This document shows positions 43,788-46,556 of a stretch of 64,000 bases of DNA, one piece after another. A program made the position numbers and the translations under genes. The notes beneath the pieces are model-generated. The model was not told the origin of the DNA. It did not search any database and worked only from the letters and a program-made list of their open reading frames with translations. Source of the DNA: Nostoc sp. FACHB-280 (GTDB lineage: Bacteria > Cyanobacteriota > Cyanobacteriia > Cyanobacteriales > Nostocaceae); assembly GCF_014697615.1 (NCBI RefSeq), contig NZ_JACJSD010000012.1, forward strand, positions 62,001 through 126,000, read 5' to 3'. How positions within the stretch are numbered: the stretch's first letter is position 1; each line of letters begins with the position of its first letter.

Positions 43788-44138
43788 TCAACGACTGCGT
43801 AAAGCTTCTAGTTGTTTTAACTGTGCCGTTTGTTGTTCTAAACGAATGGAAAGGCGATCGCACACCAGTTCGCAAATTTCAAAAATTAAAGGGTCAACAA
43901 TCTCATAGTAAATACTGACTCCTTGAGGTTGGCGATGAACAATACCTGCTTGTGCCAAAATTTTTAAATGTTTAGACACATTGGCTTGTCCCAGTCCGGT
44001 AGCTTCGATAATTTCTGAGACGTTTTTGCTACCCGATTTTAAACTGCATAAAACCTGGAGTCTGCTAGTTTCTGAAAGTACTTTAAAATAATCTGCAATT
44101 GGCCCAAGGGCAGCAGGTGAATTTTCTAACATACTCAT
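43788..44138 (-). CDS. ArsR-family regulator, candidate persulfide sensor (BigR/SqrR-like)
   Basis: 116 aa. Winged helix with recognition region TGLGQANVSKHLKILAQAGIVHRQ and wing YYEIVDP. Cys31 in the helix before the recognition region and Cys93 (also Cys89) in the last helix resemble the Cys pair of BigR/SqrR persulfide sensors; the metal-binding CVC motif of ArsR/SmtB is absent. The neighbours are a MBL persulfide-dioxygenase-like gene, a rhodanese and TauE, as in bigR operons. A palindromic site sits 22-38 nt upstream of its start. I infer that it represses the cluster and itself. Confidence 0.88.
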   Translation of the reverse strand: MSMLENSPAALGPIADYFKVLSETSRLQVLCSLKSGSKNVSEIIEATGLGQANVSKHLKILAQAGIVHRQPQGVSIYYEIVDPLIFEICELVCDRLSIRLEQQTAQLKQLEALRSR

Positions 44139-44159: not shown

Positions 44160-44176
44160 ATATTACTATATAGTAT
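44160..44176. promoter_or_regulatory. Operator-like site upstream of arsR
   Basis: ATATTACTATATAGTA shares 16 nt with the palindrome at 46521-46556. It lies 22 nt upstream of the ArsR start and overlaps the end of TauE. It is the expected place for autorepression. Confidence 0.65.
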
Positions 44177-45038
44177 TGGTATTATCATACTTGTTCGCAG
44201 AAACATAAAGTCGATCACGAATGTTAGGCGTGTATTCTGATACTTTGCTGGATTGAAAAGAATGGCGATTTTGGAATAGTACTAAAGCTGCAACTGCTAA
44301 TAAAAAATAGCCAAAGCTTTTTTGCAGTCTATAAGCAGGAACAAATTCTGCCAGATATGCACCGAAAATTGTTCCAGCACTAGCAGCCACAATAAAAGAT
44401 AACATCAACTGCCAATTAAAAGAAATATGTCCCCAATAGCTTAAAAAGCCAGCAATTGAATTCAACACAATAATCAAGAGTGATGTACCAATTGCTTTTT
44501 TCATCGGTACTTTTCCTAAAAGTACTAAAGCTGGAACAATGGCAAATCCACCACCAACACCAATCAAGCCAGTGAGTATTCCCACACCTAATCCTTCAGT
44601 CATTAACCATAACCAGCAATATTGACAAATTGGTGGAGGATACAAAGCTAACTGATCATCTGGGGCTACTTTTTGAGAACTACGGCGAATCATGAATACT
44701 GCTGCCAATAACATCATGATGGCAAACAGCAACATTTGGAAAGTGTCGGTGACAAAGGGTAGCAAGGCTATTTTTGCCCCGATAAATGCTCCCAACATAG
44801 TGGCGGAACCGAAAATCAATGCTGTTTTCAATTGAATATTTTTGGCTAGCCAGTGAGGAATTATACCCAGTAAACTCACAGTCCCGACGATCGCCAAAGT
44901 CATAGCGATCGCAGATTTTGTGGGTATACCCATAACATAAACTAAAACTGGCAACGCCAATACAGAACCACCGCCACCAATCAAACCTAAACTCAACCCA
45001 ATACAAGCAGCTAGTATATGTCCAATTATCCAGGTCAT
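44166..45038 (-). CDS. TauE/SafE-family sulfite/sulfur-anion exporter
   Basis: 290 aa with about eight membrane segments and the two family signatures LGLIGGGGSVLALPVLVYVMG and GLIGVGGGFAIVPALVLLG. The family exports sulfite, sulfoacetate or similar anions. It overlaps the rhodanese gene by 4 nt, so the two are coupled. In this set it would remove sulfite made by the persulfide dioxygenase-like protein. Confidence 0.94.
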   Translation of the reverse strand: MTWIIGHILAACIGLSLGLIGGGGSVLALPVLVYVMGIPTKSAIAMTLAIVGTVSLLGIIPHWLAKNIQLKTALIFGSATMLGAFIGAKIALLPFVTDTFQMLLFAIMMLLAAVFMIRRSSQKVAPDDQLALYPPPICQYCWLWLMTEGLGVGILTGLIGVGGGFAIVPALVLLGKVPMKKAIGTSLLIIVLNSIAGFLSYWGHISFNWQLMLSFIVAASAGTIFGAYLAEFVPAYRLQKSFGYFLLAVAALVLFQNRHSFQSSKVSEYTPNIRDRLYVSANKYDNTNTI

Positions 45039-45580
45039 ACACTACTCCGTTGATTATAAGGCAGTTTTGCTAGTAGCATTCCTAACGCGCAGGTGTCTGT
45101 AATTCCCGCAAACATCAATCCGGCTCCGACAAAGCCACTGAGAATCAAAAACCAAGGAGAAACAAAAGCACCCAGCAATGTGCCTGTAACCACCAATGAA
45201 CCTGCAACAATTTGCACTTGCCGCATTAAACTAATTGGGGCATTTTGGTTAATTTTGGTGGGATAACCTGCCGCTTTCCAAGCTGTCATCCCGCCGTTAA
45301 GATGGGTGACTTCTGTAAATCCCGCATCAAATAGTTTTTGCGCCGCCATTGTTGAACGATTCCCAGAACGACAGTAAAGAACTACTTGGGTGTCTTGGGT
45401 TTGCGGTACTTTGCGCGGATCAAATTTGGACAGGGACATTAGTGTGGCATTGGGGATATGTTCTCCAGCATATTCAGATGGTTCACGCACATCTATCAGA
45501 GTGACAGTTTGTTGTTTGAGTAACTGTTGGAGAGTTTGAGCGTCAATGGTTTGTAATTTGCTTGTATGAGAAGTGGTCAT
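45035..45580 (-). CDS. Rhodanese with C-terminal membrane domain (YgaP-like)
   Basis: 181 aa. Rhodanese domain (res ~10-110) with LYCRSGNRS, catalytic Cys70. Residues ~120-165 contain two hydrophobic helices and CALGMLL, the DUF2892 region of YgaP-type membrane rhodaneses. It probably moves sulfane sulfur to or from low-molecular-weight thiols at the inner face of the membrane. TauE follows with a 4-nt overlap. Confidence 0.93.
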   Translation of the reverse strand: MTTSHTSKLQTIDAQTLQQLLKQQTVTLIDVREPSEYAGEHIPNATLMSLSKFDPRKVPQTQDTQVVLYCRSGNRSTMAAQKLFDAGFTEVTHLNGGMTAWKAAGYPTKINQNAPISLMRQVQIVAGSLVVTGTLLGAFVSPWFLILSGFVGAGLMFAGITDTCALGMLLAKLPYNQRSSV

Positions 45581-45685
45581 TATTGTTTACCTTTGAGGAA
45601 TATTTTTAAACGCAGAGATATGGTGAAATCTGAAAATTTTTTGTCTCACGCAGAGGCGCAGAGAAAAGCACGCCGAGATTCTATT

Positions 45686-45750
45686 AACTTATGCAAGAAC
45701 TCTCTCTAACTGTTATAACTTTGTGTCCTATGCGTCCTTTGCGGTTCGTT
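45686..45750. repeat. Dispersed repeat without micro-element ('empty' copy)
   Basis: It runs from AACTTATGCAAGAACTCTCT to GCGGTTCGTT. The segment GTGTCCTATGCGTCC is uninterrupted here, whereas 19423-19451 and 51321-51349 carry a TA-flanked insert at this exact point. It lies between the MBL and rhodanese genes. Confidence 0.7.
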
Positions 45751-45807
45751 TTTTCATATTTGTGCGAGTAGGTTACAAAAATTTCTTCCCCCTACTCCCT
45801 TTATTAA

Positions 45808-46500
45808 TTACGCCGCCACGTTACCGCAGCGTTGGTTAGCGGGTACGGCTTCCATGATTTTTTTCGGGTTGGGTAAATTCAGGTTTGCCATTAACTGGAT
45901 AAATTCTTCGCGGTTACGCCCTGCAAACCGAGGGTTTAATTGTTTTTCTTCGCCAATGGTGGAAACTGTATGACCACGATAGTCATGACCAGGATAAACT
46001 AAGGTTTCGTCGGGCAATGTGAATAATTTTTGGGTGACAGCATCGTACATCATTCCCGCATTGCCACTTTGAAAGTCTGTTCTTCCACAACCACGAATAA
46101 ATAGTGAGTCTCCGGTGAGTAGGTGAGTACCATTCACTAAATAGGCATTATGGCTATCAGTATGACCGAGGGTGGCGATCGCTTCTAATTTCACACTGCC
46201 TAATTCTATAACTTCGCCATCTTTCATAAATCTATCGGCACATCCGGCTTGGGCATTTTCTGGCACAATTCCCAAACAACCTGTTATTTCCCGTAATTTA
46301 GCAGTTCCCGTAATATGATCAGCGTGGATGTGGGTTTCTAAACAGTATTTGAGCGTTAGTTCTAATTCTTGCAACAATTGGCGATCGCGCTCCACTTGTT
46401 CTAATACCGGATCGACCAAAATCGCCGTTTTTGTTCTTAAATCTGCAATTAAGTAAGTATATGTACTAGTCTCTACGTCAAATAGTTGTCGGAATAACAT
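45808..46500 (-). CDS. MBL-fold protein, ETHE1/persulfide-dioxygenase-like
   Basis: 230 aa. Metal motif THIHADHITG (His57, His59, Asp61, His62), then GHTDSHNAY, GDSLFIRGCGRTDFQ and PGHDYRGHTVSTIGEE, matching the ETHE1/Blh persulfide dioxygenase subgroup more than glyoxalase II. Its reaction would be glutathione persulfide plus O2 to sulfite and glutathione. It is first in a - strand set with rhodanese, TauE and ArsR, and its start is 21 nt from a perfect palindrome. A 227-bp gap with repeats precedes the rhodanese gene, so co-transcription is likely but not certain. Confidence 0.92.
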   Translation of the reverse strand: MLFRQLFDVETSTYTYLIADLRTKTAILVDPVLEQVERDRQLLQELELTLKYCLETHIHADHITGTAKLREITGCLGIVPENAQAGCADRFMKDGEVIELGSVKLEAIATLGHTDSHNAYLVNGTHLLTGDSLFIRGCGRTDFQSGNAGMMYDAVTQKLFTLPDETLVYPGHDYRGHTVSTIGEEKQLNPRFAGRNREEFIQLMANLNLPNPKKIMEAVPANQRCGNVAA

Positions 46501-46520
46501 TATGCCTAAACTCCACTATT

Positions 46521-46556
46521 TATTCACAATATTACTATATAGTAATATTGTGAATA
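46521..46556. promoter_or_regulatory. 36-bp perfect palindrome: probable ArsR operator
   Basis: The 36 bases equal their reverse complement (core ATTACTATATAGTAAT; ends TATTCACA and TGTGAATA). It is AT-rich without a T-run outside the stem, so it is not a normal terminator. It lies 21-56 nt upstream of the MBL start; the core recurs upstream of arsR. Confidence 0.8.

Follow-up and report, generated by a model that had tools for sequence, protein, structure and literature searches.

The window, by which we mean the whole stretch of 64,000 nucleotides of Nostoc sp. FACHB-280 that was analysed, carries a cluster of genes on its minus strand in the order PDO, a 227-nt gap, rhodanese, TauE and ArsR, together with two candidate operator sites. 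The features are as follows.

46521..46556, no strand: operator 1, a perfect 36-bp palindrome 5' of the PDO gene, its core at 46529-46548 being ATATTACTATATAGTAATAT
45808..46500, minus strand: type I persulfide dioxygenase (PDO), with an ETHE1-like metallo-beta-lactamase fold, 230 aa
45035..45580, minus strand: rhodanese with a C-terminal YgaP-like transmembrane domain, 181 aa
44166..45038, minus strand: TauE/SafE-family transporter, 290 aa
44160..44179, no strand: operator 2, the operator copy 5' of arsR, with 16 nt exact at 44160-44175
43788..44138, minus strand: predicted ArsR-family repressor, 116 aa, with Cys31 in helix 2 and Cys89 and Cys93 in the last helix
43754..43770, minus strand: terminator-like hairpin and T run directly 3' of arsR, a consensus match (5 in the region vs 2.9 expected)

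Judged from its sequence, the first of these proteins is a type I persulfide dioxygenase, far nearer to PDO/ETHE1 (solved structures 4ysb, E = 7e-83, 280 bits, and human ETHE1 4chl, 2e-66, 227 bits) than to glyoxalase II (1qh3, 3e-20, 76 bits). The rhodanese has both PF00581 and PF11127 above their cut-offs and matched the YgaP structures 2mpn and 5hbl; its ORF overlaps that of tauE by 4 nt, and TauE, by analogy with its family, probably exports sulfite or a similar anion. An earlier note on this DNA, made from the letters alone, had named a persulfide dioxygenase-like protein, a membrane rhodanese and TauE, and these identities hold by profile and structure-sequence matches. The gap between the PDO and rhodanese genes (45581-45807) contains sequence similar to an interspersed repeat of Nostoc genomes.

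Operator 1 is symmetrical over all 36 bp, with the arms TATTCACAATATTACTAT and ATAGTAATATTGTGAATA. The runner-up among the window's perfect palindromes measures 16 bp, and the longest in 100 dinucleotide shuffles of the window was 22 bp, seen once. An exact 16-nt core, ATATTACTATATAGTA, is common to both sites (44160-44175 and 46529-46544). The earlier note had described this palindrome before the PDO (MBL) start and the repeat of its core before arsR, and both are real, but the spacings it gave were one nucleotide too long: 20 nt, not 21, separate the palindrome from the PDO start codon (an ATG beginning at 46500 on the minus strand), and 21 nt, not 22, separate the operator 2 core from the listed arsR ATG (44138). 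Read on the minus strand, operator 2 is CCAATACTATATAGTAATAT; its outer side towards tauE is asymmetric and the site overlaps the last codons and the stop codon of that gene. A promoter-like TTCACA-17-TATTGT lies inside operator 1, a weak match in that 5 such matches occur in the region vs 7.6 expected by chance. The palindrome was also considered as a terminator or attenuator; its richness in A+T and its position ahead of the gene under both gene orders led us to set this reading aside.

The conserved unit is shorter than 36 bp, as the closest relatives retain a perfect palindrome of at most 20-22 bp and their outer arms are variable. The arsR-DUF442 interval of one relative (L096, the same place as L178) holds a 40-bp perfect palindrome whose outer arms are unlike those of the window, so the arms vary and the core stays.

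Since many unrelated copies would have spoken against a shared operator, the earlier note had proposed a genome search, and this was run over the strain's own genome (G000; 7,642,597 bases, 7.64 Mb). ATATTACTATATAGTAATAT at up to 3 mismatches occurred in three places, namely both window sites and one site inside an ORF (C1:315756) that we took as chance, the reversed control giving 1 forward and 1 reverse match. A degenerate operator pattern gave 5 places vs 5 forward and 5 reverse matches for its control, while the gapped half-site ATATTAC-N6-GTWATAT at 1 mismatch gave 7 strand matches at 5 places (control 1 and 2). In this 7.64-Mb genome no further credible operator copies were found, and the two window sites are the only credible places.

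The ArsR protein has HTH_5 above its cut-off and a structure model with a pLDDT of 90.5, which matched the folds of BigR (3pqj, Z 13.1) and SqrR (6o8l, Z 12.0), although metal-sensing ArsR folds scored as high or higher. Cys31 lies within a predicted helix at 24-32, and Cys89 and Cys93 within one at 84-115. Across 72 aligned ArsR proteins (that of the window and 71 from the 80 loci of named genomes described below, nine having been excluded for a non-ATG start in the gene call), Cys31 was present in 70, Cys32 in 21, Cys89 in all 72 and Cys93 in 55, being absent from the other 17. Residues 8-99 of the model align to 18-109 of 6o8l over 92 positions at a constant offset of 10, and therefore Cys31 corresponds to SqrR Cys41 and SqrR Cys107 falls on position 97, where none of the 72 aligned proteins has a cysteine. 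The second cysteine is thus predicted to be offset from SqrR Cys107 by one or two turns of the helix. With Cys31 on the Cys41 position and the last-helix cysteine off that of Cys107, the thiol pair is a shifted version of that of SqrR. Persulfide sensors are described in part of PMC10509353 as ArsR proteins whose two cysteines are placed in helices 2 and 5, respectively, and which are encoded beside rhodanese and sulfur-transport genes, and sulfurtransferase and sulfur transport genes adjoin arsR in the window and in relatives.

Family scores leave the signal of this ArsR unsettled. It reached 42 bits against the NCBIfam BigR equivalog (NF040642), far below the 155-bit cut-off, and the sole NCBIfam model above cut-off was the broad metalloregulator ArsR/SmtB. 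The label 'bigR-type' given earlier to the cluster thus fits its gene content and probable mechanism but not the strict family, given this score and the missing cysteine at the SqrR Cys107 position. It is conceivable that ArsR instead senses arsenite or metals and controls the sulfur genes in addition, since arsenite or metal sensing has reportedly been suggested, in a 2014 title by Nagy, for sqr-linked genes of Synechocystis, where the ArsR protein is named SuoR. That broad model would agree with such a sensor, as would the fold comparison, in which SmtB and CzrA tie with BigR and SqrR, and the two last-helix cysteines, atypical As(III) sensors being described as drawing cysteines from the last helix (PMC10509353, in part); arsR-sqr-arsB neighbourhoods are also known elsewhere in cyanobacteria (PMC5061849 and PMC11304991, both in part). 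However, a helix-3 CxC is absent in all 27 proteins of one alignment, and Cys93 is not universal, which leaves Cys31 and Cys89, two thiols instead of three. The recurrent neighbours, read partly by eye, are sulfur, photosynthesis and other genes, with no arsenic pump or reductase recognised among them. We therefore consider a metal sensor unlikely.

A peroxide or general redox sensor would have a precedent in RexT of Nostoc, a Nostocales ArsR with a thiol switch, but the part of PMC8960804 that describes it places neighbouring Cys40-Cys41 in helix 3 and gives ATTCG-N15-CGAAT as the bound sequence. The predicted helix 40-47 of the window ArsR has no cysteine and so no such neighbouring pair, its cysteines being in helix 2 and the last helix, and its operator is unlike that of RexT, all of which makes this explanation very unlikely.

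The ArsR protein was searched in 145 Nostocaceae genomes, with 118 matches among those listed at E <= 1e-37 (the window's own included), and 80 of the others, in 79 loci, were fetched and read, one wrong region (L111) being left out. PDO, rhodanese or TauE genes were linked to 39 of the 80, with a same-direction arrangement like the window's in 11 cases and a divergent one in 28. An upstream operator match with up to 5 mismatches, never equalled in more than 2 of 100 shuffles, preceded 38 of these 39 linked arsR genes, the sole exception (L060) being a fragmentary ArsR call; among the 41 unlinked genes such a match was present in many and absent in others. Divergent loci have a single site between the arsR and PDO genes. 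Same-direction loci have a site at up to 4 mismatches before arsR in 11 of 11 cases and before PDO also in 10 of 11 (counted without shuffles), no site having been found before PDO in L040. This distribution suggests that the second operator accompanies the relocation of arsR downstream of the operon. Whichever of the two gene orders a locus has, the site thus stays with arsR and the PDO operon, and the arrangement foreseen in the earlier note, in which one regulator controls two promoters and its own synthesis, is predicted by the comparative evidence as well. What the sequences show directly is the pair of sites and how well they are conserved, the association of the sites with these genes, and the conservation of the cysteines.

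Operator sites and ArsR also occur together at the level of genomes. A blind scan with the pattern ATAYTACYATATAGTAATAT, one mismatch allowed, covered 140 family and 291 order genomes, and in the family it found 40 distinct places in 30 genomes: where ArsR matched at E <= 1e-37, 29 of 83 genomes had a site, vs 1 of the 57 lacking such a match (Fisher p = 4.5e-7), counts that overstate the number of events because related sequences are not independent. A different repressor might bind the palindrome, the neighbouring arsR being incidental, and in favour of this the ArsR copies read in three site-bearing genomes, G009 (L093, L108), G048 (L096) and G049 (L106), lack Cys31, with the site before PDO in G009 and G049 and before arsR and DUF442 in G048. 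Either Cys31 is therefore not always needed, or the site is recognised by a further ArsR copy. Against a different repressor, 29 of the 30 site-bearing family genomes have the ArsR match, the exception (G044) has a non-sulfur target, and arsR itself is preceded by a site in both gene orders; we judge this explanation very unlikely.

The order scan gave a match in 38 of the 291 genomes and added 35 places, one of which was dropped as a duplicate, giving 74 distinct sites in total. The reversed control pattern gave one forward match in each scan, in G000 itself. Genes for PDO, ArsR, DUF442, rhodanese, sulfide:quinone oxidoreductase (SQR), CoA-disulfide reductase (CoADR), Rieske PetC or HdrC followed 71 of the 74 sites. 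Seventy were placed by script, at most 400 bp upstream of a reference gene, and for one more (L233) the ORF was identified by eye. L169 had no match other than to its own reference (plastocyanin) and was left out and so counted as non-sulfur, together with L240 and L241. The script tallies, in which one site may precede several genes, were PDO 39, ArsR 18, SQR 11, DUF442 10, CoADR 7, PetC 6, rhodanese 3, HdrC 1 and TauE 1, where three of the SQR matches (L231, L244, L249) are weak at 21-23% and three of the CoADR matches (L178, L238, L250) are weak at 32-36%. The 21% match of L249 was confirmed as a type II SQR, and PetC was counted as sulfur-linked because it adjoins SQR or PDO at those sites. 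In G044, the sole site-bearing family genome without the ArsR match and the bearer of the sole non-sulfur target among the 40 family sites, a near-perfect operator (L169, 3022) stands before the plastocyanin gene, among cytochrome-like genes. The gapped half-site ATATTAC-N6-GTWATAT at 0 mismatches was found in 39 of the 140 genomes vs 5 for its control; because many of its matches had unrelated centres, the half-site was not used to define a regulon.

Loci chosen by ArsR alone were assessed with 100 shuffles per upstream region and a threshold of p <= 0.01. This was reached by 97 of 136 ArsR genes (paralogs included), 45 of 57 PDO and 10 of 10 DUF442 genes, by 5 of 6 D1' psbA genes, 1 of 4 other psbA and 0 of 1 cut psbA, and by 4 of 9 PetC, 3 of 9 SQR, 2 of 3 type II SQR, 2 of 3 CoADR and 1 of 1 HdrC genes. 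From these counts the predicted operator link is strong for the PDO and DUF442 genes, good for D1' psbA, though on few genes and with 3-6 mismatches, and partial for the SQR and PetC genes. The D1' genes carry A286 and P144 (by script), which are present in the microaerobic PsbA2 of Thermosynechococcus, and the L035 protein has the further D1' marks F147, M173 and M199, read by eye against the same source (PMC9709244, in part). The D1' sites of L035-L037 are looser matches in which the half-sites are kept but the centre is not, and 3 of the 6 D1' genes (L084, L102, L112) adjoin an ArsR paralog of 64-66% identity. In L037 (7087-10112) an HdrC gene with its own operator copy lies behind the D1' psbA, and by eye the ORFs after it resemble HdrB and HdrA; another HdrC gene preceded by an operator site was seen in L173.

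PDO uses oxygen as a substrate. This bears on whether the real signal is low oxygen, the sulfur genes following since sulfide accompanies anoxia, as might be supposed from the looser operator before D1' psbA in relatives, D1' being the form expressed under microaerobic conditions (PMC4582080 and PMC9709244, both in part). An oxygen-requiring enzyme would be odd in a regulon for low oxygen only, and sulfur or linked genes stand behind 71 of the 74 scanned sites, so we assign low oxygen a very small probability. Paralogs 57-69% identical to the window ArsR (L080, L084, L102, L112, L105, L092, L107 and others) mostly have Thr, Ser or Ala at position 31 together with Cys32, Cys89 and Cys93, and several bear a different upstream palindrome resembling AATAACTAATTAGTTATT. 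They are often near a low-oxygen type psbA, a nitronate monooxygenase, a pentapeptide protein (by eye) and a rubrerythrin-family protein that by eye resembles AcsF; this group may be a separate low-oxygen switch.

The system had been presented earlier as lying inside a cyanobacterium, and it does, but it is not one strain's oddity, being widespread in cyanobacteria. A profile search of named genomes gave 568 passing loci, of which the best 80 were taken; their genera include Nostoc, Calothrix, Pseudanabaena, Microcoleus, Nodosilinea and Leptolyngbya, and the closest named relative by ArsR among these 80 is Nostoc spongiaeforme FACHB-130 (100%), in which arsR is flanked by genes for D1' psbA and SQR. 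The upstream match beat all 60 shuffles in 58 of the 80 loci and did not in 22. A sulfur gene (at least 30% identity) was found in the fetched flanks of 49, a few of these being generic rhodaneses of 32-37%, and was not found in those of the other 31. Relatives of the window ArsR also occur on plasmids (8 records), from Pseudanabaena, Chroococcidiopsis, Nostoc, Kovacikia and the actinobacterium Rubrobacter (46-49% identity).

For FACHB-280 itself the regulon is predicted to comprise nothing beyond the PDO operon and arsR. Close homologues of type I SQR (best 1.3e-7), type II SQR (best 6.7e-6) and CoADR (best 3.4e-14) were not found in its genome; neither was a D1' psbA, the best psbA match being of the standard type (the genome also has a broken psbA copy and, at contig ends, short psbA fragments, all untyped). 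In this strain the PDO operon probably serves internally produced or imported persulfides.

Taken together, we regard it as likely that ArsR is a SqrR/BigR-like repressor, released by persulfide, which controls the PDO operon and itself through both sites, with binding, repression, inducer, direction of control and enzyme activities modelled on the named families. Reduced dimeric ArsR would bind the palindrome over the PDO promoter and the second copy over the arsR promoter and block both. When persulfide or polysulfide rises, sulfur would link Cys31 of helix 2 to a last-helix cysteine (Cys89, perhaps Cys93), and the dimer would leave the DNA, allowing PDO, the membrane rhodanese, TauE and ArsR to be made. 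PDO would then convert glutathione persulfide to sulfite, the rhodanese would shift sulfane sulfur, TauE would carry sulfite or a related anion out of the cell, and newly made ArsR would shut the circuit again.

More tentatively, and as a proposal that falls somewhat short of probable, a repressor of SqrR-like type whose thiol pair is shifted may read one operator before sulfide and persulfide detoxification genes across cyanobacteria and, in some lineages, also before the genes for the low-oxygen D1' of photosystem II and an alternative cytochrome b6f Rieske protein. If true, sulfane sulfur would directly gate how the photosynthetic electron chain is remodelled when cells live in sulfide. Cyanobacterial sulfide sensing and photosystem subunit switching are little known, and a defined operator with a regulator of near-invariant cysteines makes the system directly testable. 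The rise of psbA and petC with polysulfide in Synechococcus PCC 7002 (PMC12466478, in part) would fit the proposed regulon. Beyond what the earlier note had claimed, the operator appears to be common across cyanobacteria and to reach D1' and sulfide-oxidation genes in relatives. We recognised no description of this operator or regulon in a literature search of open-licence papers, which is a weak negative.

Among known systems, the sqr-linked cyanobacterial arsR genes (SuoR type; Geitlerinema) are similar in that arsR is next to sqr and an alternative psbA is near sqr. The part of PMC5061849 that describes them notes the proximity of arsR, sqr and the low-oxygen psbA and calls their expression a target for further study; unlike that account, which concerns gene proximity, the present analysis finds an operator common to these genes. 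RexT resembles the window ArsR as a Nostocales ArsR with a thiol switch, and differs in its neighbouring helix-3 cysteines, its operator and its H2O2 signal (PMC8960804, in part). In some relatives a DUF442/BLH_phosphatase gene is transcribed divergently from arsR, and in several loci PDO comes after it. This recalls the Blh protein of bigR operons (BLH phosphatase domain and PDO), but in relatives the two domains are separate genes and the window has PDO only. The closest parallels are with SqrR of Rhodobacter capsulatus, BigR of Xylella and YgaV of E. coli, with which the window ArsR shares the winged helix, a helix-2 cysteine equivalent to SqrR Cys41 and a last-helix cysteine, as well as linked genes for PDO, a YgaP-like rhodanese and TauE, and probable autoregulation; YgaV too has a Cys31, together with a late Cys98 (PMC9774250, in part). 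Unlike SqrR, the window protein has Cys89 and Cys93 and no cysteine at the Cys107 position; unlike BigR, it falls under the NCBIfam BigR cut-off; and, unlike all three, its predicted operator in relatives also precedes the D1' psbA and Rieske petC genes.
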